NCBI RefSeq assembly: GCF_023208015.1
Contig: NZ_CP051627.1
Span: forward strand, 1,116,001-1,180,000
Length of the DNA: 64,000 nucleotides
Source: Thermobifida alba
Lineage (GTDB): Bacteria; Actinomycetota; Actinomycetes; Streptosporangiales; Streptosporangiaceae
Direction of reading: 5' to 3'
In this document: piece by piece, positions 25,201-55,993 of the stretch
How the letters are laid out: each line of letters opens with the position of its first letter
Position numbering within the stretch: position 1 is the stretch's first letter
Made by a program: the position numbers and the translations under genes
Notes under the pieces: model-generated
Seen by the model: only the letters and a program-made list of their open reading frames with translations
The model's database searches: none
Told to the model about the DNA's origin: nothing

Positions 25201-25225
25201 CGACTTAACGAATCCCGTTAAGTCG
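25201..25225. promoter_or_regulatory. Operator of MerR regulator 1 (inferred)
   Basis: CGACTTAACG-N5-CGTTAAGTCG is a perfect 10-bp inverted repeat 23 bp upstream of the MerR1 start. The half-site TTAACG resembles the half-sites of the ACGTTnAACGT palindromes elsewhere in the island, but the centre spacing is longer. Position suggests autoregulation. Confidence 0.7.
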
Positions 25226-25304
25226 TTCCCAGTCTATCGCTGCCCGTGGGATGAGATAGCCATCTGTGATCGGGCTCACGCTCGGTCATGGTCCCGGGGC
25301 CCGG

Positions 25305-26453
25305 TCAGAAACCGAGGTCGCGGCCGATGATCTCCTTCATGATCTCCGTCGTGCCGCCGAAGATCGTGTGGATCCGGGCGTCGCGCCAGAAGCGGGAGAT
25401 CGGGTATTCGTCCATGTAGCCGTAGCCTCCGTGCAGTTGCAGGCAGTCGTCTGCGGTGCGCTTCATCAGCTCGGTGGTCCACCACTTGGCCTTGGCCGCG
25501 TCGACCGGGCTGAGGGTCCCCGCGTTGAGTTCGAGGACGGCCCGGTCCACGTAGGTCTGCGCGATCTCGATCTCCGTCGCCATTTCGGCGAGTCGGAACC
25601 GGCTGTTCTGGAAACGGCCGATCTCCTGGCCGAAGGCCCTGCGCTCCCGGCAGTACCGCACGGTCCACTCAAGGGCGGCCTGTGCGGCGGCGACGGCGAC
25701 GACGGCGATGGACAGCCGCTCCTGCGGCAGGTTGCGCATCAGGTAGCCGAAGCCCTGGTTCTCCTCGCCGAGCAGGTTCGCCGCGGGCACCCGCACGTCC
25801 TCGAAGACCAGTTCCGCGGTGTCCTGGGAGTGCATGCCCGCCTTGGCCAGGTTGCGGCCGCGCCGGAAGCCGGGCATGTCGCGTTCCACGACCAGGAGGC
25901 TGATGCCGCGCGCCCCGGCCGACGGGTCGGTCTTGGCCACGACGATCACGAGATCGGCGTGGATGCCGTTGGTGATGAAGGTCTTGGAGCCGTTGAGGAC
26001 GTAGTGGTCGCCGTCGCGGACCGCGGTGGTGCGCACCGCCTTGAGGTCGCTGCCCGCGCCGGGCTCGGTCATCGCGATCGCGGTGACGAGGTCTCCGGAG
26101 CAGAAGCCGGGCAGCCAGCGCCGCTTCTGCTCCTCGGTGGCCAGCTCCAGCAGGTAGGGGGCGACGACGTCGTTGTGCAGACCGAAGCCGGAGCTGAGGG
26201 AGAGGGCGCCGGCGCGCGCGAACTCCTCCACGAGGACCGCGTTGTAGCGGAAGTCCGGCTCACCGCCGCCGCCGTACCCGGTGGGCACGGCCGTGCCGAG
26301 AAACCCCGCCTCACCGGCCTGTTTCCACAGTTCACGGTCGACCAGGCCCGCGGACTCCCAGCGTTCGTACTCGGAGACGACGTTGCGTCGGACGAACTCC
26401 CGTACGGAGTCCCGGAAGTCGTTGTGGACGGGGTCGAAGAGGGTGCGTTCCAT
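25305..26453 (-). CDS. Acyl-CoA dehydrogenase, long-chain (LCAD)-like
   Basis: A 382-residue FAD enzyme. 'AIAMTEPGAGSDLKAVRTTA' binds FAD and substrate, 'FITNGIHADLVIVVAKT' is the second signature, and 'LHGGYGYMDEYPISRFWRDARI' the C-terminal one. 'IFGGTTEIMKEIIGRDL' has Gly where short/medium-chain enzymes have the catalytic Glu. 'LPQERL' supplies the alternative Glu, as in LCAD. It dehydrogenates acyl-CoA to enoyl-CoA and passes electrons to ETF. It ends the MaoC-MerR2-ACAD transcript, with 2 bp between it and MerR2. Confidence 0.9.
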   Translation of the reverse strand: MERTLFDPVHNDFRDSVREFVRRNVVSEYERWESAGLVDRELWKQAGEAGFLGTAVPTGYGGGGEPDFRYNAVLVEEFARAGALSLSSGFGLHNDVVAPYLLELATEEQKRRWLPGFCSGDLVTAIAMTEPGAGSDLKAVRTTAVRDGDHYVLNGSKTFITNGIHADLVIVVAKTDPSAGARGISLLVVERDMPGFRRGRNLAKAGMHSQDTAELVFEDVRVPAANLLGEENQGFGYLMRNLPQERLSIAVVAVAAAQAALEWTVRYCRERRAFGQEIGRFQNSRFRLAEMATEIEIAQTYVDRAVLELNAGTLSPVDAAKAKWWTTELMKRTADDCLQLHGGYGYMDEYPISRFWRDARIHTIFGGTTEIMKEIIGRDLGF

Positions 26454-26455
26454 CG

Positions 26456-26956
26456 TCAGCTCCAGCGTGGTCGTGGGTGGTCGTCCGCTCCGTCCTCCGT
26501 CGCCGTCTCCGTGCTGCTCTTCTCGCTGATCCAGCGCAGCAGCTGCGGCCCGGAGGCGTCGGGGCCGGGGCGGGCGGAAGCTGCCGCACTGACGAGCGCG
26601 TACAGCCGCTTGAGGACCCGGATCCGGTGGTCGAGCTGGGCGACCTTCTCCTGCAGGATCGCCTTCGTGCGGCTCGACGCCGTGGCGCCGGTCAGCGCGA
26701 ACCGGCCCAGCTCGGCGATCTCGTCGAGGTCGAAGCCGAGCTGTTTCAGGATGCGGGTCCCCTCCAGGTAGAAGAAGTAGTCGCGGGAGTAGCGGCGTGT
26801 CCCGCCCGCTGTCCTCTCGGGCGGGGGGAGGATGCCGAGTTCCTCGTAGTAGCGGATGGTGCGGGTGGACAGGCCTGCCTGGCGGGCGAGTTCGCCGATG
26901 CTGAGCAGGCCGCGCCGCTCGTCCCTGTGGCCGTCGGCCGGGGTGGAGGCTGCCAC
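26456..26956 (-). CDS. MerR-family transcriptional regulator 2
   Basis: A 166-residue paralogue of the MerR protein at 24620-25177. It has 'LLSIGELARQAGLSTRTIRYYEELGILPPPERTAGGTRRY', then 'GTRILKQLGFDLDEIAEL' and a dimerisation helix 'AILQEKVAQLDHRIRVLKRLYALV'. The start is GTG at 26956 after GGGAGGAA. It sits between MaoC and acyl-CoA dehydrogenase genes in the same orientation. It is a candidate for binding the ACGTTnAACGT palindromes across the island, including the one before its own operon at 27478. Confidence 0.88.
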   Translation of the reverse strand: MAASTPADGHRDERRGLLSIGELARQAGLSTRTIRYYEELGILPPPERTAGGTRRYSRDYFFYLEGTRILKQLGFDLDEIAELGRFALTGATASSRTKAILQEKVAQLDHRIRVLKRLYALVSAAASARPGPDASGPQLLRWISEKSSTETATEDGADDHPRPRWS

Positions 26957-26974
26957 GGGTTCCTCCCGGGGCTG

Positions 26975-27421
26975 TCAGGCGGCCCGGGCGGAGGGGCTGG
27001 AGCCGACCCAGATGTTGATGCGGGCCGAGACCACCGTCTCGCCGCGCTGGTTGAGGATGTCCTCCTTGAGGGTCACCACGCCCCCCGGGGCCTTGTCCTT
27101 CTTGGCGAGCACCTCCATGACCGGGTGGATGGTGTCCCCGAAGAAGCAGGGGGCGAGGAACTTCACCTCTTCCATGCCCAGGAACGCGATGACCCGGCCC
27201 GGCAGCAGCGGGATGAGTCCGGCGCCGCAGGACAGCACCAGCAGGCCGTGCGCGATGCGCTGCCTGAACGGTGTGGTCTTGGCGTACTCGGCGTCCATGT
27301 GCAGGCCGAAGTGGTCGCCGGTGACGCCGGCGAAGTTCACCACGTGGGTCTCGGTGATGGTGAGGCCGCTGAAGGAGCGCTTGTCGCCGACGGCGAGTTC
27401 GTCGTAGTAGCGGTCGAACAC
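26975..27421 (-). CDS. MaoC-like (R)-specific enoyl-CoA hydratase
   Basis: A 148-residue single hot-dog domain. 'FAGVTGDHFGLHMDAEYAKTTPFRQRIAHGLLVLS' contains the hydratase-2 Asp/His catalytic pair and the 'AHGLL' helix. Length matches PhaJ/MaoC-type single-domain hydratases. It would hydrate a 2-enoyl-CoA in the pathway fed by the acyl-CoA dehydrogenase downstream. It is the first gene of the operon, with a palindromic site 54 bp upstream. Confidence 0.88.
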   Translation of the reverse strand: MFDRYYDELAVGDKRSFSGLTITETHVVNFAGVTGDHFGLHMDAEYAKTTPFRQRIAHGLLVLSCGAGLIPLLPGRVIAFLGMEEVKFLAPCFFGDTIHPVMEVLAKKDKAPGGVVTLKEDILNQRGETVVSARINIWVGSSPSARAA

Positions 27422-27460: not shown

Positions 27461-27477
27461 GCAATATTTAATAGTTT

Positions 27478-27488
27478 ACGTTCAACGT
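27478..27488. promoter_or_regulatory. Island operator, MaoC-MerR2 promoter
   Basis: ACGTTCAACGT is a perfect palindrome around one central base, in an AT-rich patch 57 bp upstream of MaoC. It is one of the shared island motifs (consensus TTGACGTTGAACGTCAA). Confidence 0.65.
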
Positions 27489-27612
27489 TATATAACATCA
27501 CGGTGCTCCGGGTAAACCCCGCAACCGGGCCGCCCCGCGGAGGACCGGGGACGGCGACCCGGCGTGTCGGTCCGCACGGCAGCGGGCGGGGCGTGCCCCG
27601 CCCGTGCGGTGG

Positions 27613-29572
27613 TCAGATCCGGAGCGCGAGTTCGTAGGCCTGCCTGGTGGCGTAGGAGATCCGCCGCGGTGCGTAGGCGTCCCCCAGGACGTGCCGCTGG
27701 GCGACCCGTCCCTCCAGTTCCGTGTAGAGGGCGGACTCGGCCTCCCCGCCGCAGGCCAGCACGACCGAGTCGTAACCGGTGTGCTCGCGCTCCACCCCCG
27801 AGTAGACGTTGCGCGAGACCACGCGGTCCGGCTCGATGCGGGCCACCCGCTCCGTCACCTCGATCCGGGCGCCCGCCGCGCTGAGCTTGGCCAGGGGCGC
27901 CCCGATGGAGTACCGGCCCACCAGGGGGGCGATCGCGGGCGTCGGGTAGAGCACGGTGACCTGCCGGCCGAGGTCGGCCAGGTGTCCGGCGACCGTGAGC
28001 GGCTGCATGTGGTCCTCCATCGCGACCACGAGCACCCGCCGGCCGGTCTCGGCCCGGCCCAGCAGCACCTCGCGTCCGTCCACCACGAACGGCAGGTCCA
28101 CGCCGGGGATGTCGGGCCGCCGGGACCGGGCGCCGGTGGCCACCGCCACGACGTCGAACCCGGCCCCGGCCACGGCCTCGGCCGTCGCCTCGCGGCCCAG
28201 CTCGACCCCGACACCCAGGGAGGCCAGCCGCCGCTGCTGGAAGGCCAGGAAGTCGGTGTAGGAGGAGTTCTCGGCGGCCCGCGCGGCGATCCGCATCTGC
28301 CCGCCGACCTCCTCCTCGCGCTCCCACAGCCACACCCGGTGGCCGCGTTCGGCCAGCAGCGCGGACAGCTCCAGTCCGGCCGGCCCCGCCCCGGCGACGA
28401 GGACCCGCTTGGGGACCCTGGCCCGGGGCGGTGGCGGCTCGGCCTCGCGTCCGGTGCGCGGGTTCACCGAGCAGCCGAACCGCACGCCGTCCACGACGAC
28501 CCGGTGCAGGCAGTCGTTGGTGCCGATGCAGGGCCGGATGTCGGCGGTGCGTCCGCTGCGGGCCTTGGCGACGAGGTCGCCGTCGGCGAACATGGCCCGT
28601 GCCATCCCGACGACGTCGGCGTGCCCCTCCGCGACGACGCGGGCCGCCGCGGCGGCCGTCGCGACCCGTCCGGTGTAGACCACGGGGATGTCCAGGGCCT
28701 CCCGGAACCTGCGGGCCAGGCCCGACCCAGTGCGCGACGCCGTAGTGGTGGGTCTGGATGTAGCTGGGGGCGCCCCAGTTGTTGCCGACCACGCAGTGCA
28801 GGTAGTCGACGGTGCCGCTGGCCTGCAGCGAGGAGGCGATGGCCAGCCCCTCGGCCAGGTCGTAGCCGCCCTCGAACAGTTCGTCCATGTTCAGCCGCAC
28901 CCCGACGGTGAAGTCCGGCCCGACCTCCCGGCGAATGGCGTGCAGCACGTCCAGCAGCAGCCGCATCCGCCGCCCGTGGTCGCCGCCGTAGGCGTCGTCG
29001 CGCCGGTTGGTGGCGGGGGAGAGGAAGAGCTGCAACAGGTCCTCGTGGTTGGCGTGCACCTCCACCCCGTCGAGTCCGGCGGCCCTGGCCTCTGCGGCGG
29101 AGAACGCGTACTCCTCGACGAGCCGGGCGATCTCGGCGGTGTCCAGCACGTGCGGGACCTGGTTGTTGGTGTGGTTGGCCAGCCGGCCCGACGGCGAGTG
29201 CGGCATGCCGCCCTGCATGATCAGCTGGGCCGAGGCGTAGGCGCCGGCCGAGCGCACCGCCTCGGCGTAGCGGGCGGCCCGTTCGCGGAAGTGCGGCAGC
29301 CGGAAGACGCCGCGGACGGTGGCCCCCAGCCCGGTCGGTTCGAACCCGGGGATCACCGTGTTGCCGACGAATCCGTTCAGGCCGCAGATCCAGGCGGCCC
29401 CGCTCTCGGCGCGCCGCCGCCAGTAGGCGATGGTGGCGCGGGCCTGGCGTTCGCTGCCGAACAGGTCGCCGGTCAGCTGCCCGTGCGGCGGCAGCATGAT
29501 CCGGTTGCGCAGGTCCATGCGGCCCACCCGGATCGGCTGGAACAGCGGGCTGTGCGCGGTCGGTTCCGTCAT
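27613..29572 (-). pseudogene. OYE/2,4-dienoyl-CoA-reductase-type FMN-FAD oxidoreductase, frameshifted
   Basis: Two frames together encode one protein of about 650 residues. The N-terminal part ('LFQPIRVGRMDLRNRIMLPPHG', 'VEVHANHEDLLQLFLSPATNRRDDAYGG') is the FMN barrel of the old yellow enzyme family. The C-terminal part ('MVYTGRV', 'CIGTNDC', 'KRVLVAGAGPAGLELSALLAERGH') is the Fe-S segment and FAD/NAD(P)H module, as in dienoyl-CoA reductase and BaiCD/BaiH. The frame changes near 28700-28740, after 'HHYGVAHW', and the total length leaves one extra base. The second cluster ligand of 'CxxC' is Thr. Either the gene is broken or this is a sequencing error. The ATG overlaps the flavoprotein stop by 4 bp. 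Confidence 0.8.
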
Positions 29573-31185
29573 CGGCCCGTCCTCCGGTGCGTGGCCGCGT
29601 GCCGTCCGGCGAGGTGGGCGAAGACCAGGGCGGGCCCGAGCGTGCCCCCGGCGCCTCCGTAGGCCATGCCGGTGGGGGCGGCCATCGCGTTGCCCGCGGC
29701 GTAGAGCCCCTCCACCGGTGTGCCGTCGACGCTGAGGACCTGGCCGTCGGGGGTGGTGCGGGGGCCGCCCTTGGTCCCCAGGGCGCTGGGGTGCACGGGC
29801 ACGGCGTGGAACGGCCCGGTGCCGAGGGGGCCCAGGGTGGCCTGCGGGGTGCCGTAGTACGCCTGGTCCCCGCACCAGCCGTCGTACACGCTCTCGCCGC
29901 GGCCGAAGTCGGGGTCGTGCCCGTTCCGGGCGTGGTCGTTGAAGCGCGCCACGGTCGCGGTGAGCGCGTCGGCCGGGACCCCGATCCGCTCGGCGAGGCC
30001 GTCGAGGGTGGCGGCGCTGGTCACCCAGTCGGGGGCGCCGTGGCCCGGGGCGGTGCCGAACACGCCGTACCGGCGCACGCAGGCGTCGTCGAGGAGCAGC
30101 CAGGCCGGGACGTTGGCGTAGGAGAACGAGGCGCTGTCGAAGGTGCGGAACACCGCGCCCAGGGCGTTGTAGTTGGCGGCCTCGTTGGCGAACCGGCGGC
30201 CGCGCGCGTTGACCATGAGGGTGCCGGGCAGGGTCCGCTCGCGCAGCAGCAGGGTGGGGGCGGGGGAGCCGTCCGGGCCGGGAACCAGGACGACGGGCAC
30301 CCACCAGGCCTCGTGGACGCCGCCGAGCCGGGCTCCCAGGCGCATCGCCATGCGCAGTCCGTCCCCGGTGTTGCTCGGTACCCCCGGGGGGTGGGAGAGG
30401 GGGCCGTGGACCAGGTCCCGGACCAGTTCGCGGTCGTGCTCGAAGCCGCCGGTGGCGATGACGACCCCCCGGCGGGCGCGGACCTCGTGCGGCCCCGTGT
30501 CCGTCGCGAACCGGACGCCGGTGACGCGGCCGCGGTCGACCAGCAGGTCGACGGCCCGCATTCCGGTACGGGGGGTGATCCCCCGGTCCAGACAGCCCCG
30601 GAGCAGAGCGGCGACCAGGCCCCGTCCCAGCCCCTCCTGGGACGCCTCGGTCCGCCGGCGCAGGAGCTCGGGGGCGATGACCCCGGTTCCGCCGCCGCTG
30701 GGGATCTCGCTGAGGCGCAGGCGCCGCACGGTGCCGACCATCCGTTCCCGCCAGGGGCCCAACCGCCGGGTGTCGAACAGCGCGGGCTCCAGGGAGCGGC
30801 CGCCTCCGGGCAGGCCGCCGGGGTGCTCGGGGTGGTAGTCGGGGTAGCGGGGGACCAGTTCGAGGCGGAGCGGCGTCTGGCTCTCCAGCCAGTCCAGGGT
30901 GGGGGCAACGTTGTCGACGAACGCCTCGACCAGCTCCGGGCGCATGCTGCCGTTGGACAGCGAGTGCAGATAGGTCAGCGCCTGTTCCCGGCTGTCGTGG
31001 ACACCGGCCTCGGCGGCGTGGCGGTTGTTGGGGAGCCAGACGACGCCGCCGGAGAGCGCCGTCGTGCCGCCGACCCGGTCGGCCTTCTCGAACAGTCCCA
31101 CCGAGGCGCCGTTGCTCGCCGCTGCCAGCGCGGCGGTCAGGCCTGCGGCGCCGGTGCCGAGCACCACCACGTCGTACTTGCTCAT
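29569..31185 (-). CDS. FAD-dependent 3-ketosteroid-dehydrogenase/fumarate-reductase-like oxidoreductase 1
   Basis: A 538-residue flavoprotein. Residues 3-30 'YDVVVLGTGAAGLTAALAA' form the dinucleotide-binding fold, and 'RVGGTTALSGGVVWLPNN' follows. The C-terminal 'GLYAAGNAMAAPTGMAYGGAGGTLGPALVF' corresponds to the KSTD segment that holds the active-site Tyr and Gly. Members insert or remove a double bond next to a ring ketone. The ATG at 31185 follows GGAAGGTGG. Its stop overlaps the OYE start by 4 bp, so they act in one pathway. A paralogue is at 34269-35894. The substrate is not identified. Confidence 0.85.
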   Translation of the reverse strand: MSKYDVVVLGTGAAGLTAALAAASNGASVGLFEKADRVGGTTALSGGVVWLPNNRHAAEAGVHDSREQALTYLHSLSNGSMRPELVEAFVDNVAPTLDWLESQTPLRLELVPRYPDYHPEHPGGLPGGGRSLEPALFDTRRLGPWRERMVGTVRRLRLSEIPSGGGTGVIAPELLRRRTEASQEGLGRGLVAALLRGCLDRGITPRTGMRAVDLLVDRGRVTGVRFATDTGPHEVRARRGVVIATGGFEHDRELVRDLVHGPLSHPPGVPSNTGDGLRMAMRLGARLGGVHEAWWVPVVLVPGPDGSPAPTLLLRERTLPGTLMVNARGRRFANEAANYNALGAVFRTFDSASFSYANVPAWLLLDDACVRRYGVFGTAPGHGAPDWVTSAATLDGLAERIGVPADALTATVARFNDHARNGHDPDFGRGESVYDGWCGDQAYYGTPQATLGPLGTGPFHAVPVHPSALGTKGGPRTTPDGQVLSVDGTPVEGLYAAGNAMAAPTGMAYGGAGGTLGPALVFAHLAGRHAATHRRTGR

Positions 31186-31288: not shown

Positions 31289-32521
31289 ATGGCCGCCCAA
31301 CCGCCGAAGACCACCGGCCCGGCAGGCGGGACGCCCGCCGCCGACACCCCGCTGCGGACCTGGATCTGGCCGGTCCTGCTGGTCATGAGCGCCGCGGCGG
31401 TCTCCCAGGGATTCGTCCGCTTCACCCTCGGCTACGTCATGCCGGACATGACCCGCGACCTGCTCGGCTCCTACGGCACGGCCGGCCTGCTCAGCGCCAC
31501 CAACCTGGGCGGCTACCTCGTCGGCGTCGTCGTGCTGGCCTCGGTCGGCCACCGGTTCGAGAGCACCCGGCTGCTCAGGACCGGGCTGGCGCTGACCGCG
31601 CTGGGCCTGGCCGTCGTGGCGGCCGCCCCCTCCGTACCGGTGCTCTTCGTCGGCATGGGACTGGCCGGCCTGTGCAGCTCACTGGTCTGGATCCCGATTC
31701 CCTCGGTCGTCGGCGCCCACGTCCCCGCCCGCCACCGGGGCCTCGGATTCGGCCTGGCCACCGCGGGCATCGGGGTCAGCATCGCGGTGACCGGACCCGC
31801 CGTGACGCTCCTCCAGCGGGTGTTCGGCGCGGGGCAGTGGCGTCCGGTGTGGGCGCTGGAGACAGCCCTGGCGGTGGTGGTCCTGCTGCTCCTGCTGTTC
31901 CTCAGGCCGGTGCGCGCCGAGGCCGCGGAACCGTCCCCGCGCCTTGCCGGGCGGACCGCGCTGCCCGGCGGGGGCAGACTGCTGACCTCCTACTTCCTGT
32001 ACGGGGTCAGCTTCGTCCTCTACACCACCTACCTCGTCGTGGCCCTCCGGGACGACCTGGGCTTCTCCCCGGACGACGCCGGGCTGGCCTTCGCTCTCCT
32101 CGGTGTGGCCAGCATCGTCGGGGGCGCGGCGGGCGGCCGCGCCTCCGACCGGATCGGCCGCCGTCCGGTCCTGGCGGTCTGCATCGCCGCCGCAGGCCTG
32201 CTGGCCCTGGTCGTCCCGCTGGGGTGGGGCGAGGCGGTCCTGGCGGCGAACCTCCTCTACGGGCTGGTGATGACGTCGGTCGGCGCGGTGATGGTCGCCT
32301 ACCTCGGCGACCTCCTCCCGCCCGCCCGGATGGCGGCGGCCTTCGGCGGTGTGACGGCCGGCCTCGGCCTGGCGCAGGTCGTCGGCCCGCCCGTCGGCGG
32401 CTGGCTGGCCGACACGACCGGGTCCTTCGCCGCGGTCTTCGTCCTCGCCTGCGTCTGCGGGGTGGCCGGCGGAGTCGTCGCGGCCTTCCTGCCGGGGACG
32501 GGGGCGGGCCGACGGCGGTGA
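31289..32521 (+). CDS. MFS transporter
   Basis: A 410-residue protein with 12 predicted membrane helices. 'GLLSATNLGGYLVGVVVLASVGHRF' and 'GRASDRIGRRPVLAV' (the loop 8-9 copy of the MFS A motif) are visible, and the protein resembles the YbfB/YjiJ branch. The ATG at 31289 follows GGAAGGA. It diverges from flavoprotein 1 over an interval with an island operator, so it probably imports or exports the substrate of that pathway. Confidence 0.85.
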   Translation: MAAQPPKTTGPAGGTPAADTPLRTWIWPVLLVMSAAAVSQGFVRFTLGYVMPDMTRDLLGSYGTAGLLSATNLGGYLVGVVVLASVGHRFESTRLLRTGLALTALGLAVVAAAPSVPVLFVGMGLAGLCSSLVWIPIPSVVGAHVPARHRGLGFGLATAGIGVSIAVTGPAVTLLQRVFGAGQWRPVWALETALAVVVLLLLLFLRPVRAEAAEPSPRLAGRTALPGGGRLLTSYFLYGVSFVLYTTYLVVALRDDLGFSPDDAGLAFALLGVASIVGGAAGGRASDRIGRRPVLAVCIAAAGLLALVVPLGWGEAVLAANLLYGLVMTSVGAVMVAYLGDLLPPARMAAAFGGVTAGLGLAQVVGPPVGGWLADTTGSFAAVFVLACVCGVAGGVVAAFLPGTGAGRRR

Positions 32522-38192: not shown

Positions 38193-38199
38193 GTCAGTA

Positions 38200-48537: not shown

Positions 48538-49575
48538 TCAGCCCGAGCCGAGGACGGCCAGTCCGGCCTCCACCAGTCCGGGCACCGCGGCGCCGGCCCG
48601 TTCGAACCCCTCGCCGACGGTCTGCCCGGCCAGGTAGCGGGAGTGGATGCCCTCGGCGATCACCGCCAGTTTGAGGTAGCCGAACGCCACGTAGAAGTCG
48701 AGCGGGGACAGGTCCAGCCCCGAGGCGTCGGCGTAGGCGCGGACCAGCACCTCCCGGTCGGGGAAACCGGGGTTGGCGCTCACCGCGTGCCTGGTTCCGG
48801 TCACGTCCTCGGTGCGCGGGTCCCAGTAGACCAGCAGCAGTCCCAGGTCGGTCAGCGGGTCGCCCAGGGTGGACAGCTCCCAGTCGATGACCGCGGCGAT
48901 CCCGTCGCCGTCCGGCTCGAAGATCACGTTGTCCAGGCGGTAGTCGCCGTGGACCACGCTCACCCGCTGCGCCGGCGGCACCGCCCGTTCCAGGCGGCCC
49001 ACCAGCTCGGCCACCTCGGGCAGCTCCCGGGTCGCCGACAGCGACCACTGCTTGGCCCACCGCGCCACCTGGCGGGCGGTGAACCCCTCGGGACGGCCCA
49101 GGCCCTCCAGCACGGAGGGGTCCGTGGTGTGCAGGGCGGCCAGCGTCTCCACCAGGGACAGCGCACGGCGCCGGGCCGACTCGGGCGCCAGGCCGGCGGT
49201 GTCCGCGGCGTCGCGCAGCACCGGGCCGTCCACCTGCTCCATCACGGAGAAGTCGGCGCCGAGCACGGCGTGGTCCCGGCAGAGCACCACGGGAGCGGGG
49301 ACCGGGACGGCGGTGCCGTGCAGCGCGCTGATGACCCGGTACTCGCGGGCCATGTCGTGGGCGGTGGGCAGCACGTGGCCGACCGGCGGCCGCCGCAGCA
49401 CCCAGCGCGAGCGGCCGTCGGTGAGGCGGTAGGTCAGGTTGGAGCGGCCCCCGGTGACCAGGGAGGCCCGCAGAGGGCCGGCCAGCCCGACGGCGGACTC
49501 CAGGTACGGCGTCAGCCGTGCCAGGTCCAGACCGACGAGCCGGTCGGCCCCCGCGGCGGCGGGTTCAGCGGCCAC
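48538..49575 (-). CDS. Aminoglycoside-phosphotransferase-fold kinase, ACAD10/11 kinase-domain/LvaA-like
   Basis: A 345-residue APH-fold kinase. 'WVLRRPPVGHVLPTAHDMAREYRVISALHGTAVPVP' supplies the Lys/nucleotide region. 'VVHGDYRLDNVIF' is the catalytic loop and 'VIDWELSTLGDPLTDL' the metal site. The sequence follows the kinase domain of human ACAD10/11 and bacterial LvaA, which phosphorylate 4-hydroxyacyl-CoA so that the phosphate can be eliminated. The acyl-CoA dehydrogenase at 51216-52421, an ACAD10/11-like one, is in the same operon. The predicted role is therefore 4-hydroxyacyl-CoA kinase. It overlaps the hydratase gene by 11 bp. Confidence 0.82.
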   Translation of the reverse strand: MAAEPAAAGADRLVGLDLARLTPYLESAVGLAGPLRASLVTGGRSNLTYRLTDGRSRWVLRRPPVGHVLPTAHDMAREYRVISALHGTAVPVPAPVVLCRDHAVLGADFSVMEQVDGPVLRDAADTAGLAPESARRRALSLVETLAALHTTDPSVLEGLGRPEGFTARQVARWAKQWSLSATRELPEVAELVGRLERAVPPAQRVSVVHGDYRLDNVIFEPDGDGIAAVIDWELSTLGDPLTDLGLLLVYWDPRTEDVTGTRHAVSANPGFPDREVLVRAYADASGLDLSPLDFYVAFGYLKLAVIAEGIHSRYLAGQTVGEGFERAGAAVPGLVEAGLAVLGSG

Positions 49576-50350
49576 GGAACTCCGCCTTCCCCACGCCGTT
49601 CGCCACGAAGCTGGCCATGCCGGTCTTCTGGTCCTCGGTGGCGAACAGCCCGGCGAACAGCACGCGCTCCAACTGCAGCCCGCTGTCCAGGTCGACCTCC
49701 AGGCCGCGGTCGATCGCCTCCTTGGCGGCCCGCAGCGCCATGGCGGGCCCGTTGAGGTAGGGCGCGGCCAGCTCCCGGGCCCGCTCCAGCACCCGGTCCG
49801 GCTCGACCACGTGGTCGACCAGCCCGATGGCCAGGGCCTCCTCGCTGCCGACCATGCGGCCGGAGAAGACCAGCTCCTTGGCGCGCGCCGGGCCCACCAG
49901 GCGGGGCAGCCGCTGGGTGCCCCCGGCGCCGGGGATCACCCCGAGCAGGATCTCGGGGAAGCCCAGCCTGGAGTCGGTCGCGCACACCCGCAGGTCGGCG
50001 GCGAGCGCCAGCTCGCAGCCGCCGCCCAGGGCGAACCCGTTGATCGCCGCGATCACCGGGACCGGCAGCCGCGACAACGCGGTGCACACCTCGCCCAGGG
50101 CGCCGGAGTCGCGCACCGCCGTGCGGTAGTCCCACTCCACCATCTCCTTGACGTCCGCGCCCGCGGCGAAGACCTTCGGCCCGCCGGTGACGACGACGGC
50201 GCGGACCTCCTCGCTGCGCCGCACCTGCTCGACGGCCTGCGCCAGTTGGGCGATCAGCACCCGGTCCAGGGCGTTGACCGGCGGCTGGGCCAGGGTGATC
50301 ACGGCCAGCCCGCCGGAGACGTCGAGGGTGACCCGTTCCTGCTCGCTCAT
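49565..50350 (-). CDS. Enoyl-CoA hydratase/isomerase
   Basis: A 261-residue crotonase. 'AAGADVKEM' forms the first oxyanion NH. 'INGFALGGGCELALAADLRV' gives the second, and 'LGFPEILLGVIPGAGGTQRLPRLVG' carries the Glu of active hydratases (Glu in 'FPEI' and the following Gly-rich turn). The role is hydration of 2-enoyl-CoA to 3-hydroxyacyl-CoA, the step before the dehydrogenase upstream. The ATG at 50350 overlaps that gene's stop by 4 bp. Confidence 0.9.
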   Translation of the reverse strand: MSEQERVTLDVSGGLAVITLAQPPVNALDRVLIAQLAQAVEQVRRSEEVRAVVVTGGPKVFAAGADVKEMVEWDYRTAVRDSGALGEVCTALSRLPVPVIAAINGFALGGGCELALAADLRVCATDSRLGFPEILLGVIPGAGGTQRLPRLVGPARAKELVFSGRMVGSEEALAIGLVDHVVEPDRVLERARELAAPYLNGPAMALRAAKEAIDRGLEVDLDSGLQLERVLFAGLFATEDQKTGMASFVANGVGKAEFRGR

Positions 50351-51198
50351 GAGTGGTCGTACCATCCCTTGCCGCTCTTGCGACCCAGCTCGCCGGCCGC
50401 GGCCTTGCGGATCGACAGCTCCGGCGGGTGGAACTTCGGGTCGGCGGTGTCGGTGTGGATGTTGCGGGAGGCGTTGACGAACACGTCGATGCCGGTGAGG
50501 TCCATGGTCTCCAGCGGGCCCATGGCGTGGCCGAAGCCCAGGCGGCAGGCGGTGTCGATGTCCTCGGCGGTGGCCACCCCGCTCTCGACCAGCTTCACCG
50601 CCTCGACGCTGAGCGCCACGATCAGCCGGGTGGTGACGAACCCGGCGATGTCGCGGTTGACCACCACGCAGGTCTTGCCCAGGTCCTCGGCGAAGGCCGT
50701 GGCCCGGGCGAGGGTCTCGTCGCTGGTCTTGACGCCGCGCACGACCTCGCACAGCCGCATCATCGGCACCGGGGAGAAGAAGTGGGTGCCCACCACCCGC
50801 TCGGGGCGGGCGGTCACCGCGGCGATCCGGGTGATCGGCAGGGCGCTGGTGTTGGTGGCCAGCACCGTCTGCGGCCCGCAGATCCGGTCGAGGGTGCGGA
50901 ACACCTCCTGCTTGGCCTCCAGCTTCTCGATGATGGCCTCGACCACGATGTCGGCGCCGCGGGCCGCCGCCTCCAGGTCGGTGGTGGTGGTGATCCGCGC
51001 CAGGGCTTGGCCCACCTGCTCGGCGGTGACCTTCCCCTTCTTCTCCAGGCGCCGCAGCGACGACTCGATGTCGCCGAGGGCGCGGGTGAGCTGCTCCTCG
51101 TCGACGTCCTGGAGGGCGACGTCGTAGCCGGCCGCGGCGGCGACCTGGGCGATTCCGGAGCCCATCAGACCGGCTCCGACCACTGCAAGACTGGGCAC
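50347..51198 (-). CDS. 3-hydroxyacyl-CoA (3-hydroxybutyryl-CoA) dehydrogenase
   Basis: A 283-residue protein. 'SLAVVGAGLMGSGIAQVAAAAGYDVAL' is the NAD-binding fold and 'VGTHFFSPVPMMRLCEVVRG' carries the catalytic His. 'NRDIAGFVTTRLIVALSVEAVKLVESGVATAEDIDTACRLGFGHAMGPLETMDLTGID' is the dimer domain. It oxidises 3-hydroxyacyl-CoA to 3-oxoacyl-CoA in the cytosol. GTG start at 51198 with AAAGGA upstream. It follows the acyl-CoA dehydrogenase by 17 bp. Confidence 0.92.
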   Translation of the reverse strand: MPSLAVVGAGLMGSGIAQVAAAAGYDVALQDVDEEQLTRALGDIESSLRRLEKKGKVTAEQVGQALARITTTTDLEAAARGADIVVEAIIEKLEAKQEVFRTLDRICGPQTVLATNTSALPITRIAAVTARPERVVGTHFFSPVPMMRLCEVVRGVKTSDETLARATAFAEDLGKTCVVVNRDIAGFVTTRLIVALSVEAVKLVESGVATAEDIDTACRLGFGHAMGPLETMDLTGIDVFVNASRNIHTDTADPKFHPPELSIRKAAAGELGRKSGKGWYDHS

Positions 51199-51215
51199 GG
51201 GGGTTCCTTTCTGCG

Positions 51216-52421
51216 TCACTGGGGGCCGCGTGCGGCGGTGCGGCGGCGCACGGCCCGCTTGGCGATGGACATCCGGTGGACCTCGGAGGCCCCGTCGTAG
51301 ATGCGGAACGGGCGGACCTCCCGCAGGAACAGCGCGAGCGGAAGGTCGTGGGAGACGCCGAGGGCGCCGTGGAGCTGCACCGCGCGGTCCACGATCCGGC
51401 CCACCGCCTCGGCGACGAACGTCTTGGCGATCGAACTCTCCGCCGACGCCCGCTCGCCCCGGTCCATCAGCCACGCGGCGTGGGCGATCAGGGCGCGGGA
51501 GGCGGCCAGGTCGATCTCGTTGTCGGCGAGCATCTGCTGGGCCATGCCCAGGTCGGCGAGTCTGCTGCCGAACGCCTCGCGTTCGGCGGCGCGGTCCAGG
51601 GCCATGTCCTGGGCGCGCTGCGCCAGGCCCAGCCAGCGCATGCAGTGGGTGAGCCGGGCCGGCGCCAGCCGCACCTGGGCGTAGGCGAAGCCTCTGCCGA
51701 CCTCGCCCAGCACGGCCTCGGGCGGGACCCGGCAGTCGGTGAAGAGCACCTCGCAGTGGCCGCCCACGAAGCCCCGGTCGAGGCTGTCGATGTGCCGGAC
51801 GATGCGCATGCCGGGGTTGTCGGCGTCGATGAGGAACATCGTCGCCCCGGCGGGGCTGCCGGCGTGCTCGGGGGTGCGTGCCATGCAGATCGTCCAGGCC
51901 GCGCCGTCCGCGCCGGTGATGTACCACTTGCGGCCGTTGACCACCCAGGCCCCGCCGTCCCAGTGGGCCGAGGTCCGCAGCATGGACGGGTCCGAACCGG
52001 CGCCGGGGCTCGGCTCGGTCATCGCGAAGCAGGACCGGACCGCCCCGCCGGCCAGCGGGGCGAGGTACTTCTCCTGCTGTTCGGGGGTGGCCACCCGGTG
52101 CAGCAGGTGCATGTTGCCCTCGTCGGGCGCCGCGCAGTTGAGGGCGAGCGGACCGAGCAGGCTGTAGCCGGCCTCCGTGAGGACGACCGCCTGCTCGGAC
52201 ATCGACAGGCCCAGGCCCCCCCACCGCCGGGGCGCGGTGGGGGAGAGCAGCCCCGCGGAGGCGGCGGCTGCCTGGAGCCGGCGGCGCAGTTCCTCGGTCG
52301 GCTCCGCGCCGCTGTCGACCAGTTCCCGTTCGGCCGGGATCGCCTCGTCGCGGACGAAGTCGCGGACACGGTCGCGCAACTCGGCGAGACGGGGGTCGAG
52401 CACGGGGTCGAACACGGTCAT
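51216..52421 (-). CDS. Acyl-CoA dehydrogenase, ACAD10/11 (LvaC)-like
   Basis: A 401-residue ACAD-fold protein. 'CFAMTEPSPGAGSDPSMLRTSA', 'VNGRKWYITGADGAAWTICMART' and especially 'VRLAPARLTHCMRWLGLAQRAQDMA' follow human ACAD10/11 ('GRLGPGRIHHCMR...GLAERAL'). In that group and in LvaC the enzyme eliminates the 4-phosphate from 4-phosphoacyl-CoA to give a 2-enoyl-CoA. The kinase partner is three genes on. 'IYDGASEVHRMSIAKRAV' ends the fold. The ATG at 52421 overlaps the SDR stop by 4 bp. An ordinary alpha,beta-dehydrogenase cannot be excluded. Confidence 0.84.
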   Translation of the reverse strand: MTVFDPVLDPRLAELRDRVRDFVRDEAIPAERELVDSGAEPTEELRRRLQAAAASAGLLSPTAPRRWGGLGLSMSEQAVVLTEAGYSLLGPLALNCAAPDEGNMHLLHRVATPEQQEKYLAPLAGGAVRSCFAMTEPSPGAGSDPSMLRTSAHWDGGAWVVNGRKWYITGADGAAWTICMARTPEHAGSPAGATMFLIDADNPGMRIVRHIDSLDRGFVGGHCEVLFTDCRVPPEAVLGEVGRGFAYAQVRLAPARLTHCMRWLGLAQRAQDMALDRAAEREAFGSRLADLGMAQQMLADNEIDLAASRALIAHAAWLMDRGERASAESSIAKTFVAEAVGRIVDRAVQLHGALGVSHDLPLALFLREVRPFRIYDGASEVHRMSIAKRAVRRRTAARGPQ

Positions 52422-53194
52422 TGCGCGGTCCATCCGCCGTCGACCACGAGGAAGGAGCCGGTCATGTAGCTGCCCGCGTCGGAGGCGAGCAGCAGCAGTG
52501 CCCCCACCAGTTCGTCGGCGTCGCCGAGGCGGCGCATCGGGATGCTGGCCAGCGCGCTGGCCGAGGCCTTCTCGTCCGCCTCGATCGCCGCGGTCATGTC
52601 GGAGTGGATCAGTCCCGGCACCAGTGCGTTGACCCGGATGCCGCGCCGCAGGGTCCACTGCATCGCCAGGTCGCGGGTGATGCCGAGCAGTCCGGCCTTG
52701 GAGGCGCTGTAGGCGGACTGCGGGGCGTCGGTGGAGACCATGCCGAGCACCGACGACACGTTGATGATGGAGCCGCCGTGGCCCGCGGCGATGCACGCGC
52801 GGCCGAACGCCTGCGCCATCTGGTAGGCCCCGACCAGGTTGATCTGCAGGACCCGGGCGAATTCGGCGGGATCGTCCTTGTGGGAGGGGACGACCCGGCC
52901 CACACCGGCGTTGTTGACCAGCACGTCCGCCCCGCCGAGCTGGTCGCGGGCGGCGGCGACCAGGGCCTCGCAGTCGGCCGGGTCGGCCACGTCGGTGCGC
53001 ACCGCGACGCAGCGGCGGCCGAGCGCCTCGATCTTGCCCCGGGTCTCGTCCAGGAGCGAGGTGCGGCGGGCGCCGAGGGCGACGTCGGCGCCCGCCTCCG
53101 CGAGGGCGAGGGCGAAGGTGACCCCCAGGCCGGAGGAGGCGCCGGTCACGATCGCGACCCTGCCTTCGAGACTGAACCGGTCGAAGATGCTCAT
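52418..53194 (-). CDS. Short-chain dehydrogenase/reductase (candidate 4-oxoacyl-CoA reductase)
   Basis: A 258-residue classical SDR: 'AIVTGASSGLGVTFALALAEAGADVALGARR' (Arg pair suggests NADP), NNAG, 'IINVSSVLG', catalytic 'YSASK' and 'VNALVPGLIHSDM'. The start at 53194 (MSIFDRF) is used; the ATG at 53221 would overlap more of the CoA-transferase gene. Its place before the ACAD10/11-like enzyme and kinase fits reduction of a 4-keto- to 4-hydroxyacyl-CoA, as LvaD (an SDR) does in levulinate catabolism. That role is inferred from context only. Confidence 0.86.
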   Translation of the reverse strand: MSIFDRFSLEGRVAIVTGASSGLGVTFALALAEAGADVALGARRTSLLDETRGKIEALGRRCVAVRTDVADPADCEALVAAARDQLGGADVLVNNAGVGRVVPSHKDDPAEFARVLQINLVGAYQMAQAFGRACIAAGHGGSIINVSSVLGMVSTDAPQSAYSASKAGLLGITRDLAMQWTLRRGIRVNALVPGLIHSDMTAAIEADEKASASALASIPMRRLGDADELVGALLLLASDAGSYMTGSFLVVDGGWTAQ

Positions 53195-54042
53195 GACAGC
53201 CTCGCAGCAGCTCGGTTCCACTCGGCGTCGAGGATCCCCTTGAGGTAGGAGAGGCGCTCCCTGCCGGAGACGAAGTCGAACTTCACCGTTCCGAAGGGGT
53301 CGATCCGGTTGCGCAGCAGGTCGAGCTGCTCCTGGGTCGGTTCGGCGGTGGTGGGGACGTCGGCGGGCACCTCCAGTTCGAAGCCGGTGTTGTCGACGAC
53401 GGTCTGCACGTCGACCCCGGGGTGCACGCTCTCGATGCGGAACGGCCGGTCGTCGTCGTCCTTGACCAGCACGGCCAGGTTGGTGACGACGACGATGGGA
53501 CCGGGCTGCAGGCCGGCCTCCTCCCGGGAGCGGTCGCCGACCTTCCAGCGGGTGCCGGTCACGAACTGGACCTTGTCGACCAGGGTCCGCGGGTTGTGGT
53601 TGCCGAAGTAGGCGACCATCTTGCGGTACATCTTGATGACCTCGGCCGCGCCGGCGCCCCCGGGGAGGCGGACCTTGGGCGCGTCGAACGGTCCGATCGC
53701 CGACAGGTTGATCGCTCCGCTGCCGTCGAACTGGGCCGAGGAGACGGCCTCGACCCCGCCGTGGTTGGCCAGGTGGATGGAGTTGATCTCGGTCAGCATG
53801 CCCCAGCGGCAGACCGCGCCCTTGTAGGCGGAGGCCTCGGCGCCGGTGAAGGAGAGCTGGACCGGGGCCATGCCCACCGCGTCGAAGCCCACCAGGTAGG
53901 CGTCCTGGGCGTGGGTCAGTTTGGCCAGCATGTAGGAGGCGTAGGCCAGCGGGGTGAAGGACCCCATCACGGTGACGCCCTCGTTGTCGACCTCGGCCGC
54001 GACGCGGCAGGTCATGAGTTCGTGGATCTCGTAGTCGGTCAC
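53191..54042 (-). CDS. CoA-transferase family I, beta subunit (IpdB-like)
   Basis: A 283-residue subunit. 'EIHELMTCRVAAEVDNEGVTVMGSFTPLAYASYMLAKLTHA', 'SSAQFDGSGAINLSAIGPFDAPKVRLPGGAGAAE' and 'NHNPRTLVDKVQFVTGTRW' are visible. I do not see the SENG motif that carries the catalytic Glu in 3-oxoacid CoA-transferases. This fits the IpdAB group, which in mycobacteria hydrolyses a ring carbon bond of a steroid-derived CoA ester. GTG start at 54042 overlaps the alpha-subunit stop by 4 bp. The function is either CoA transfer or C-C hydrolysis. Confidence 0.83.
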   Translation of the reverse strand: MTDYEIHELMTCRVAAEVDNEGVTVMGSFTPLAYASYMLAKLTHAQDAYLVGFDAVGMAPVQLSFTGAEASAYKGAVCRWGMLTEINSIHLANHGGVEAVSSAQFDGSGAINLSAIGPFDAPKVRLPGGAGAAEVIKMYRKMVAYFGNHNPRTLVDKVQFVTGTRWKVGDRSREEAGLQPGPIVVVTNLAVLVKDDDDRPFRIESVHPGVDVQTVVDNTGFELEVPADVPTTAEPTQEQLDLLRNRIDPFGTVKFDFVSGRERLSYLKGILDAEWNRAAARLS

Positions 54043-54953
54043 GCCTGTGCTCCCTCGATGAGTTCGGCTGCGTCGACGAGGGCGCTGAGGACGCTGTCGC
54101 GGTCCTTCAGCACCCGGGCCCGGTAGCCCTCTTCGGTTTCCTCGCGGATCTGGGCGACGTACTCGGCGATCGCGGCGGGGTCGCTCGCGGCCGCGGCGTA
54201 GTCCATGAGCTCCCAGGCGTCCATGGCGTAGCGGGGGACGTGGGACGTGGGGTGGGCGCCGAAGGGGGCCTCGATGACCGCGTCGACGTAGTAGCCGGGG
54301 AGTTTGGTCATGTGCGCGTTGTCGACGATCACCTGCCGGTCGACGACCTCCTCGCAGGTGACGATCACCCGTTTGGCGGCCTTGGCCATCTCCACGTCGG
54401 GTCCGGAGGTGCCGTCCCACTGGGCGTTGCCCTCGGCGTCGGCGCGCAGGGCGTGCACGATCGCGACGTCGGGCTGCAGGGCGCGCACCGCGGTGAGCTG
54501 CTCACCGGTGAAGGGGCAGTGGGTGGTGGCGTAGATCTCGGGGTAGCGGCCCGGGATGTCGGAGCCGAAGGGGCCCCGGTAGGGCAGGTAGGGCATGCCG
54601 CGCCCCTGCGCCTCCAGGCCGATCAGCAGGCCCAGGCCGGTGTACTCGGTGAACGGCAGGCTGCCCGACTCGATGCCCTTGCGGACGTTGGGCGCCAGCC
54701 CGAAGGCTTCCAGGGTGACCATCGAGAAGGACAGGTGGCCCAGTGTTCCCGCCGCCGCCAGCAGGTCCATGTCGACCGAGCCGACGACGGTGATCGCGTG
54801 GATGCCGGTGCGTCCGGCCCGGATGAGCTGGCGCACCGCGGCCATCGGGTGGTTGGCGAACCAGCCGCCGCCGAAGGCGACGGACTCGCCGTCGCGGACG
54901 AGTTCTCCGAGGTTCTCCAGGGGGACGACCTTGCCGTTTGTTCTGCTGCTCAT
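54039..54953 (-). CDS. CoA-transferase family I, alpha subunit (IpdA-like)
   Basis: A 304-residue subunit. 'LVRDGESVAFGGGWFANHPMAAVRQLIRAGRTGIHAITVVGSVDMDLLAAAG' is the N-terminal CoA-transferase fold. 'PFTGEQLTAVRALQPDVAIVHALRADAEGNAQW' is the typical central strand-helix. It is the first gene of the seven-gene operon running to 48538, with an island operator 58 bp upstream. It forms a heteromer with the beta subunit. Substrate is unknown. Confidence 0.85.
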   Translation of the reverse strand: MSSRTNGKVVPLENLGELVRDGESVAFGGGWFANHPMAAVRQLIRAGRTGIHAITVVGSVDMDLLAAAGTLGHLSFSMVTLEAFGLAPNVRKGIESGSLPFTEYTGLGLLIGLEAQGRGMPYLPYRGPFGSDIPGRYPEIYATTHCPFTGEQLTAVRALQPDVAIVHALRADAEGNAQWDGTSGPDVEMAKAAKRVIVTCEEVVDRQVIVDNAHMTKLPGYYVDAVIEAPFGAHPTSHVPRYAMDAWELMDYAAAASDPAAIAEYVAQIREETEEGYRARVLKDRDSVLSALVDAAELIEGAQA

Positions 54954-55010
54954 GGTTGCACCACGGCTTCCTGCTTGAACACGCTTCCTCCGTGCACTGT
55001 CGAGATGAAT

Positions 55011-55027
55011 TTACCGTTAAACGTCAA
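55011..55027. promoter_or_regulatory. Island operator of the CoA-transferase operon
   Basis: TTACCGTTAAACGTCAA matches the consensus TTGACGTTGAACGTCAA at 14 of 17 positions. It lies 57 bp before the alpha-subunit start and just past the stop of the enoyl-CoA hydratase gene. Confidence 0.65.
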
Positions 55028-55053
55028 ACGTGTAAATGCCCCTCGGGAAGTCG

Positions 55054-55851
55054 TCACCGGTTCAGGCCGCGCAGCCCCTTGGCGGCCATGAAGTCGGAGA
55101 TCCCCTGCCACACCTCCTCCTGGCGGAGCATCACCTGGTCGGCCATGGCCTCGATGTCGGCGGCGCGCCTGGGGTCGAGGCGGGGGCCGCAGTCGACGGC
55201 GAGGGTGGCGAAGTAGGCCGAGGGCCAGGGAAGCCGCTCGACCGCGGCGGCGACGGCCTCCAGTTCCTCGGCCAGCCGGTCGTGCGGGACGACCCGGCTG
55301 ACGATGCCCGCGCGCAGCGCCTCCTCGGCGTCGACGATGCGGGAGGTGAGGATCATGTCCTTGGCGAAGGCCTCGCCGGTCGCCCGGGCCAGGCGGCTGG
55401 TGCCGCCGACGTCGGGAACGATCCCCATGCGCATCTGCGGCATGGCGAACACCGCCCGGTCGCTGGCGATGCGGATGTCGCAGGCCAGGGCCAGCTCCAG
55501 GCCGGCCCCGACGGCGGGGCCGTTGATCGCGGCGATGCTGGGCTGGGCGACGCGCTCGAAACGGTCCACGATCGTGGCCCAGCGCCGGATGAACGACGGG
55601 TAGCTGCCCCGCTCCACCTCCAGCGCGGCGCCGATCGCGGCGAAGTCCACGCCGGCGCAGAACGCGGGCCCGTTGCCGGTGAGGGTCACCACGCGCAGGT
55701 CGTCGCGGCGTTCGACGCCGGCCGTGACGCGGTCGAGGTCGTCCCAGACCTCGAAGGTGAGCGCGTTGCGTTCGTCGGGCCGGTCGAGCGCGATGTCGAG
55801 TCGGGAACCGGAGTCCGCGATCTGCAGGGTCTGCGGTGCGGCGGCGGTCAT
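55054..55851 (-). CDS. Enoyl-CoA hydratase/isomerase family protein
   Basis: A 265-residue crotonase. 'VVTLTGNGPAFCAGVDFAAIG' and 'AINGPAVGAGLELALACDIRIAS' build the oxyanion hole. 'FAMPQMRMGIVPDVGGTSRLARATG' has Gln-Met rather than the usual Glu after Pro, and Asp in 'VPDVGG' is kept, so isomerase or C-C-cleaving chemistry is possible. The ATG at 55851 follows GAAGGAGA. It is adjacent to IpdAB-like genes, as echA20 is in mycobacterial steroid clusters, but the sequence alone does not prove EchA20 function. Confidence 0.85.
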   Translation of the reverse strand: MTAAAPQTLQIADSGSRLDIALDRPDERNALTFEVWDDLDRVTAGVERRDDLRVVTLTGNGPAFCAGVDFAAIGAALEVERGSYPSFIRRWATIVDRFERVAQPSIAAINGPAVGAGLELALACDIRIASDRAVFAMPQMRMGIVPDVGGTSRLARATGEAFAKDMILTSRIVDAEEALRAGIVSRVVPHDRLAEELEAVAAAVERLPWPSAYFATLAVDCGPRLDPRRAADIEAMADQVMLRQEEVWQGISDFMAAKGLRGLNR

Positions 55852-55976
55852 GGTCGTCTCCTTCGGTGCGGGGGGCGGGACGCGTCCCGCGCTGTCGGGC
55901 GGGCGGGGTGCCGGGGCCTCCCGGTGCGTCCGTTGCCTCTCCGGGCTGTTGTCATCTCCCAACACAATATGCAAGA

Positions 55977-55993
55977 CTAACGTTCAACGTAAA
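55977..55993. promoter_or_regulatory. Island operator between hydratase and mutase operon
   Basis: CTAACGTTCAACGTAAA contains the perfect core ACGTTCAACGT (55980-55990). It is located between divergent starts at 55851 and 56005, only 12 bp before the GTPase gene, so repression there is likely. Confidence 0.65.

Follow-up and report, generated by a model that had tools for sequence, protein, structure and literature searches.

A shared palindrome as the probable operator of a MerR-linked catabolic regulon in Thermobifida alba

Which protein reads the palindrome that recurs along a large acyl-CoA catabolic island of Thermobifida alba, and what does it control? We address this question for a stretch of 64,000 nucleotides (hereafter the window), which comprises bases 1116001-1180000 of the single 4.90-Mb contig that was scanned as the genome. 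The island measures about 55 kb and extends about 19 kb past the window; positions follow window numbering unless stated otherwise. In our view, the palindrome quite probably serves as operator for a catabolic regulon under the control of a small and rare clade of MerR-family proteins, duplicated here as MerR-A and MerR-B, and a MerR dimer most likely represses the island. Sequence comparisons indicate that the regulon is real, that its regulator family is well supported, and that the regulon extends past the window and across genera.

The initial annotation had named eight places, namely ACGTTCAACGT at 27478, ACGTTTTACGT at 31235, TTGAACGTCAA at 34212, the perfect 17-mer TTGACGTTGAACGTCAA at 46379, TTTACGTATCACGTCAA at 48362, TTACCGTTAAACGTCAA at 55011, CTAACGTTCAACGTAAA at 55977, and a perfect repeat at 25201, and a check of the sequence located all of them there. 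They have one unit in common, TTNACG-N5-CGTNAA, whose in-register starts are given in Table 1. The repeat at 25201 is real but more than merely "related" to the others, as it had been called: it belongs to the same operator class, with an exact fit at 25205-25221 (TTAACGAATCCCGTTAA), and precedes merR-A. Similarly, the site at 34212 is real but not a half-site, since the unit covers it in full from 34206; its orthologous sites score 16.3 in two congeners (G001 and G002) and in Acrocarpospora macrocephala, so that the weak form itself is conserved. Four of the window sites lie between divergent genes, just as the initial annotation said. Seven more sites follow past the window's end (64015, 68069, 68106, 70055, 70092, 73336, and 75117), with a weak further one at 79881, and no site scoring at least 16 occurs in window positions 1-25200. 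From 90 aligned gene heads of five genomes (divergent genes being counted twice and some starts being doubtful), the operator core was derived as TTNACGTTNAACGTNAA, which spans 17 bp and has weak symmetric flanks, for a total of about 25 bp.

How specific are these sites to the island? A genome scan, proposed earlier as a check, answers this largely in favor of the regulon: all four exact matches to TTNACG-N5-CGTNAA fall inside the island, as do 11 of the 42 places with at most one mismatch (25 for a reversed-pattern control), whereas the other 31 lie elsewhere. The 11 places are found within 48 kb (1141-1189 kb of the genome) where 0.4 would be expected (binomial p 3e-13), figures that are indicative only, as the span was picked from the sites. 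The pattern ACGTNNNACGT occurs 27 times genome-wide, against five for its control, with nine matches in the island, one of which (at 54238) is inside a gene and is no site. For TTGACGTNNNACGTCAA, the three places with at most one mismatch are all in the island, and so are five of the eight with at most two (control, seven). In the window plus the next 20 kb, all 15 sites scoring at least 16 are intergenic according to heuristic gene calls, which assign 85% of that DNA to coding sequence. The cleanest control against chance is a scan of the spacer length at one mismatch or fewer: in this island spacer 5 yields 11 places, and spacers 2, 3, 4, 6, 7, 8, and 9 yield 0, 0, 1, 1, 0, 1, and 0. Over five islands, spacer 5 gives 11, 11, 8, 9, and 13, and every other spacer from 2 to 9 gives 0-2.

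The promoters of orthologous islands tell the same story. In both congeners the island is inverted and syntenic, and the sites are kept before the same operon heads, an outcome that bears out the comparison suggested in the initial annotation. The table of best upstream sites places the strong scores at operon heads, and no internal operon gene of the two congeneric islands has a strong upstream score. Acrocarpospora macrocephala, of another family by taxonomy, carries 12 sites scoring at least 16 over 40 kb. Identity within the sites exceeds that of their flanks throughout (0.96 versus 0.81 in G001, 0.90 versus 0.75 in G002, and 0.82 versus 0.56 in Acrocarpospora), as counted from 18, 18, and 14 gene-promoter comparisons, respectively, in which divergent genes share a site; two of the 14 in Acrocarpospora (before the genes at 62379 and 75188) align poorly.

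Both merR genes are located at the edge of the island, merR-A behind the operator at 25205 and merR-B behind that at 27475, within the maoC-merRB-acad operon. Pfam MerR, MerR_1, and MerR-DNA-bind all score above cut-off, which places the proteins in the MerR superfamily. An AlphaFold2 model of MerR-B (pLDDT 78, pTM 0.60) is MerR-like, with a 33-residue helix and a short extra C-terminal helix of low confidence, and its Foldseek matches include SoxR, HiNmlR, and CueR. Neither MerR-A nor MerR-B contains a cysteine, which makes a metal ligand unlikely, and all NCBIfam metal-sensor models score below cut-off; a classical metal-sensing MerR (CueR, ZntR, MerR) was rejected on these two grounds. In a maximum-likelihood tree the two proteins fall in separate groups with low support (80/62 and 82/57).

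Do the sites follow these proteins into other genomes? MerR-B homologues at E<=1e-15 were found in 16 of 100 relatives, and identities of at least 80% only in the three island-bearing Thermobifida. A survey of 394 actinomycete genomes, which scored eight candidates per genome and may miss other cases, yielded MerR-A homologues at E<=1e-30 in at least two (the window's own genome and Thermobifida fusca). In Acrocarpospora a single such MerR reaches E<=1e-15, and seven of the 13 places with at most one mismatch in that genome (control, four) are on the 133-kb contig that bears it. The metagenome-assembled genome (MAG) JA1.bin20 of the Actinomycetes carries three MerRs on two contigs, and 12 of its 13 sites (control, zero) are found there. 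In T. fusca the island is absent from the stretch seen and a MerR-A orthologue is kept beside ACAD1, with one of the three exact sites of that genome 27-43 bp before the merR-A start. These patterns support the view that the sites track the rare MerR clade.

More distant homologues add a second line of evidence. Among the best 80 loci of the matches listed from 84,980 species genomes, only nine have the strict 17-bp consensus upstream at p<=0.05. A single strict consensus over these loci was therefore abandoned, the cause being the spacing: Bacilli and delta-type bacteria have 4-bp spacers. In an upstream scan of spacers 2-8, the same half-sites with a 4-bp spacer and at most one mismatch occur in 24 of 27 Bacilli loci (0.3 expected), in 10 of 27 loci of delta-type bacteria (22 of 27 at two mismatches or fewer), and in three of 11 loci of Latescibacterota and others (0.2 expected), with the caveat that rows within groups are related and not independent. 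Counting the Bacilli locus L119 with the delta group gives 11 of 28 (0.2 expected), a group in which other spacers are also raised (spacer 8, three of 28 at one mismatch or fewer with 0.1 expected, and 11 of 28 at two or fewer with 3.0 expected). Of four actinobacterial loci, three have spacer 5 at one mismatch or fewer; none of 11 further rows (ten actinobacterial and one from Chloroflexi) has spacer 4 or 5 even at two. The half-site is thus common to these MerRs, and the extra central base pair marks the island clade.

What was observed directly is that the sites exist, cluster, are conserved, and occur together with the MerR clade; from this we infer binding, repression, a ligand, and the reading of the sites by either paralogue. 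A MerR dimer would bind TTNACGTTNAACGTNAA at the operon heads of the acyl-CoA catabolic island and at the promoters serving both merR genes, and would repress them until a pathway intermediate, probably an acyl-CoA or a cyclic keto acid, releases it; an organic ligand derived from the pathway is the natural guess. Repression fits better than activation because the site centers of MeaB and ECH4 lie 20-27 bp before the starts in the three island-bearing Thermobifida. Moreover, in the 90-row alignment the columns beyond the roughly 25-bp site stay at 0.3 bit or less, so there is no -10 or -35 element at a fixed distance, which suits a repressor. Gene starts were called heuristically, and a small number of them (e.g., that of maoC in G001) are likely to be in error.

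Critically speaking, several observations weigh against this reading. The 31 off-island places were mentioned above; of four off-island places opened from that scan and from the one with ACGTNNNACGT, two are coding (L012 and L008), one is intergenic (L010), and one overlaps a predicted gene start (L011). The pattern TTGACGTTNAACGTNAA occurs at one mismatch or fewer in 29 of 60 relatives (control, zero), where recurring matches of this type are often TTGACGTTGAACGAGAA; the pattern alone does not mark the regulon, and clusters of sites do. The scoring matrix was trained on nine island sites, which makes scores within the island partly circular. Distant MerRs of the Streptosporangiaceae type (L090 and L092-L095) have no such site at their own promoters, and around the weaker MerR homologues of seven relatives (39-54% identity) no site scores 16 or above; six of the seven were searched whole, four being without an exact site and two having exact sites on other contigs. 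Microtetraspora is a weak case, with three sites (control, four), one of them on the MerR contig. So is an Acidimicrobiia MAG, in which six of ten sites (control, one) are on a MerR contig that makes up about 35% of the genome; here, matrix matches lie two before and one after a merR. A second region of this MAG (G102:C1:1787001-1824000, loci L193 and L194), on a contig where no MerR match reached E<=1e-15, combines acyl-CoA genes, mutase-like genes, and IpdA-like genes with operator-like sites that are scattered. For the G102 and G103 regions, low numbers or wide scatter make the sites an unsuitable basis for further argument.

Four other explanations need to be weighed against a MerR pair that represses the island. 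The first is a division of labor, in which MerR-A would have its own operator, TTAACG...CGTTAA, as sole target, while MerR-B would bind the ACGTTNAACGT sites of the island. The five central bases of the merR-A operator are indeed unlike those of the other sites in each of the three island-bearing Thermobifida. Acrocarpospora, however, has both operator types and a single MerR-A-type protein at E<=1e-15, which suggests that one protein can serve both, and the merR-A operator of T. fusca is a hybrid of the two (one side reads TTGACGT, the other CCGTTAA), which leaves a strict division doubtful.

The textbook mode of MerR proteins is the untwisting, on ligand binding, of over-spaced promoters to which they are bound between -35 and -10, and they could act as such classical activators here as well. 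In T. alba and in both congeners, the site before the ABC operon shares bases with a TTGACG hexamer resembling a -35 element. Across the 90 rows, on the other hand, site centers lie from 17 to about 200 bp before the called starts (nine rows within 27 bp), and no promoter element keeps a fixed distance, so that we hold activation to be improbable.

A regulator encoded elsewhere, with MerRs that only travel with the island, seems slightly less probable still. One example would be a TetR of the KstR/FadR kind, since TetR-family members such as Rv3574 (PMC1995591) are known to regulate lipid and steroid catabolism in actinobacteria. A TetR-looking protein lies, by eye, just outside the Acrocarpospora island, and our Pfam screen covered the island genes only, minus the 94-aa product of 38200-38484. 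Within that scope, the only regulators were the two MerRs and one HTH_31 protein inside an insert discussed below, TetR proteins were not among them, and two orphan proteins checked as possible hidden regulators (67515-68030 and 68138-68947) matched no DNA-binding family even at E<=1. Furthermore, the merR promoters themselves carry sites, one of which persists at merR-A of T. fusca without the island, and the half-sites recur upstream of related MerRs from other phyla.

Finally, a chance or compositional artefact is hardly conceivable: AT-rich promoters favor TT..AA and one relaxed pattern (at most two mismatches) is near control frequency genome-wide, but neither accounts for the spacer-5 excess in five islands, with 0-2 for each other spacer, or for site identity above flank identity across families.

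Returning to the MerR-controlled regulon, we can ask what its genes would degrade. Counting those of Table 1, the genes of the whole island include two CoA ligases, a thiolase, three KstD-like dehydrogenases, acyl-CoA dehydrogenases, hydratases, and short-chain dehydrogenases (SDRs), all assigned by Pfam. The best NCBIfam matches of KstD1 and SDR1 are cyclohexanecarboxylate-pathway enzymes, both below cut-off, and for the thiamine-diphosphate enzyme no NCBIfam cut-off was reached among the 25 hits listed. In the B12-dependent mutase, a Gln (VQDIP) is aligned with the VRNTY stretch of human methylmalonyl-CoA mutase, the Arg of which is presumably the carboxylate-binding Arg207; the alignment thus sets the island enzyme apart from methylmalonyl-CoA mutase by the absence of the Arg for the substrate carboxylate, and 2-hydroxyisobutyryl-CoA mutase also has Gln. 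The IpdA-like protein has a Gly where 6co6 has Glu and 6coj has Ala, a position that we take to be the catalytic Glu105 of IpdA, so that, by alignment, it differs from the IpdAB ring hydrolase in lacking a match to this residue. In the IpdB-like protein, a gap is aligned with the E of the GctB stretch IIVESGL, which we assume to be the CoA-transferase Glu. Breakdown of 2-hydroxyisobutyryl-CoA by a thiamine-diphosphate lyase is reported for actinobacteria (PMC7176365, PMC8760513).

An alicyclic or quaternary-carbon acid is our guess for the substrate. A wider proposal, possible but tentative, is that of a patchily inherited actinobacterial module. Its MerR pair would read the TTNACG half-site known from its distant relatives across one extra central base pair, and so on a differently bent or twisted operator, and would repress an undescribed pathway for such an acid that uses a non-methylmalonyl B12-dependent acyl-CoA mutase and an IpdAB-like enzyme that has neither of the known catalytic glutamates; T. 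fusca would keep a relic (MerR-A, the operator, and one acyl-CoA dehydrogenase).

Table 1. Operators and genes of the island, in window numbering (a dot in the strand column denotes an operator)
Feature	Position	Strand	Basis and remarks
merR-A, MerR-family regulator	24620..25177	-	Pfam MerR, 59.7 bits; start 25177 preferred over 25198 by conservation with orthologues (alignments)
Operator TTAACGAATCCCGTTAA	25205..25221	.	Exact genome-wide pattern match; center 36 bp upstream of merR-A, which is preceded by similar sites in both congeners and Acrocarpospora
ACAD1, acyl-CoA dehydrogenase	25305..26453	-	Pfam; within the merR-B operon
merR-B, paralogue of merR-A (about 51% identical)	26456..26956	-	Pfam MerR, 63.1 bits
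MaoC-like hydratase	26975..27421	-	Pfam; first gene of the maoC-merRB-acad operon
Operator TTTACGTTCAACGTTAT	27475..27491	.	Precedes maoC-merRB-acad
NADH:flavin oxidoreductase, old-yellow-enzyme type	27613..29545	-	Frame-broken, pieces in two frames; intact 652-aa genes in G001 and G002
KstD1, KstD-like FAD dehydrogenase 1	29569..31185	-	Pfam FAD_binding_2; best solved relative 3-oxosteroid 1-dehydrogenase 7p18
Operator TTTACGTATAGGGTTAA	31239..31255	.	Between divergent KstD1 and MFS genes; weaker at the G002 orthologues (13.0)
MFS transporter	31289..32521	+	Pfam MFS_1/MFS_4
Thiamine-diphosphate enzyme, acetolactate synthase/2-hydroxyacyl-CoA lyase superfamily	32541..34163	-	Pfam TPP_enzyme domains
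Degenerate operator CTTCCCTTGAACGTCAA	34206..34222	.	Between divergent thiamine-diphosphate enzyme and KstD2 genes; score 18.1
KstD2, KstD-like FAD dehydrogenase 2	34269..35894	+	Pfam
ABC transporter, branched-chain type (permease, binding protein, two ATPases)	41604..46324	-	Pfam
Perfect operator TTGACGTTGAACGTCAA	46379..46395	.	Between divergent ABC operon and DUF4440 gene
DUF4440/SnoaL-like protein	46439..46816	+	Pfam
SDR1, short-chain dehydrogenase	47480..48259	-	Pfam
Operator TTTACGTATCACGTCAA	48362..48378	.	Precedes SDR1
Seven-gene operon: IpdA-like and IpdB-like CoA-transferase-fold subunits, SDR, acyl-CoA dehydrogenase, 3-hydroxyacyl-CoA dehydrogenase, enoyl-CoA hydratase, APH-like kinase	48538..54953	-	Pfam; solved relatives IpdAB and glutaconate CoA-transferase
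Operator TTACCGTTAAACGTCAA	55011..55027	.	Precedes the seven-gene operon
ECH2, enoyl-CoA hydratase/isomerase	55054..55851	-	Pfam
Operator CTAACGTTCAACGTAAA	55977..55993	.	Between divergent ECH2 and MeaB genes
MeaB chaperone, B12 acyl-CoA mutase large and small subunits, SDR	56005..60103	+	Pfam; best solved relative 2-hydroxyisobutyryl-CoA mutase 4r3u
SnoaL, glyoxalase-fold protein, acyl-CoA dehydrogenase, acyl-CoA ligase	60196..63947	-	Pfam
Operator of the SnoaL-to-ligase operon	64015-64031		Just outside the window; site also at the orthologues in both congeners

Not every gene in this interval would belong to the regulon. The initial annotation had the MerR proteins repress the whole island, and while comparative genomics supports the regulon and its link to MerR, that scope is too wide. 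An insert at 37056-41168, with five called genes that include a PCMT-like methyltransferase and an MvdD-type ATP-grasp protein (Pfam), is without good sites: the best upstream score before its genes is 4.3, and one match of 8.2 lies inside a gene. The insert has no counterpart in the islands of the two congeners, and it serves as a built-in negative control. The stretch 37056-39439, with the methyltransferase, the ATP-grasp gene, and the small 94-aa gene between them (38200-38484), looks like a graspetide cluster, which we take to be fuscimiditide-like, and beside them lies a pair of an HATPase_c_2 protein and an HTH_31 regulator (39436-41249, Pfam). Elsewhere in the island, the split of the flavin oxidoreductase gene could be a sequencing error or mark a decayed gene. 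Past the window, two NMT1/THI5-like binding proteins (75188-76219 and 76976-78010) each find their best match in the same gene of each congener's island (80-81% and 71-73% identity); together with an ABC ATPase and a permease further on, they would form a second importer of the regulon.

Thermobifida are compost organisms of interest for the breakdown of polymers and plant matter. Linking a large unassigned catabolic island of this genus with a defined operator and one particular family of regulators allows its substrate and ligand to be sought. It would also add a MerR-type system in a group whose known regulators of comparable pathways are TetR proteins, and the spacer, which changes from 4 to 5 bp from one related MerR clade to another, provides a natural experiment in the reading and distortion of DNA by MerR dimers.

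How does the regulon compare with known systems? No description of it came up among the open-licence PMC papers listed. The regulons of KstR (as which we regard Rv3574) and KstR2 likewise hold KstD-like, IpdAB-like, acyl-CoA, and SDR genes under one palindromic operator. They differ by their TetR regulator, where the island has MerR-type proteins, and by their operator, as the island's is unlike the KstR motif. Another comparison is with the MerR-MFS pairs of Bacilli (L119 and L133), which have the same TTNACG/CGTNAA half-sites upstream of their own merR gene as the island does, but which differ by a 4-bp spacer, by an MFS neighbor, and by having no acyl-CoA catabolic genes among the neighbors scanned. 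At L119 (about 5938-7685) and L133 (about 6004-7925), sites of the TTGACGTTAACGTTAA type precede merR, and several Bacilli rows have further half-sites in a row.

The initial annotation had drawn a parallel with LiuR, which stands for the MerR family and the half-site, probably fails for the targets of the island, and fails for the spacing of the operator (5 versus 4 bp). The LiuR operator has 16 bp with a 4-bp spacer. LiuR is described as a MerR-family repressor of branched-chain amino acid use in Proteobacteria (PMC3223726) and tabulated as a regulator (PMC5343134), and an "ILV box" is described (PMC7238569). Neither the biotin carboxylase nor the HMG-CoA lyase family came up for the island proteins that Pfam was given, so a leucine pathway is not seen there, and a plasmid search for a LiuR comparator listed only MerRs below 60% identity. 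Filing the regulator as LiuR was rejected: the island targets appear to differ, the spacer sets it apart, and the 4-bp spacer is seen upstream of related MerRs. What the two share is the MerR family, several acyl-CoA catabolic operons under one operator, and a presumed mode of repression, whereas the 16-bp operator with its 4-bp spacer is not matched, the 5-bp spacer being the one that prevails in the actinobacterial islands.

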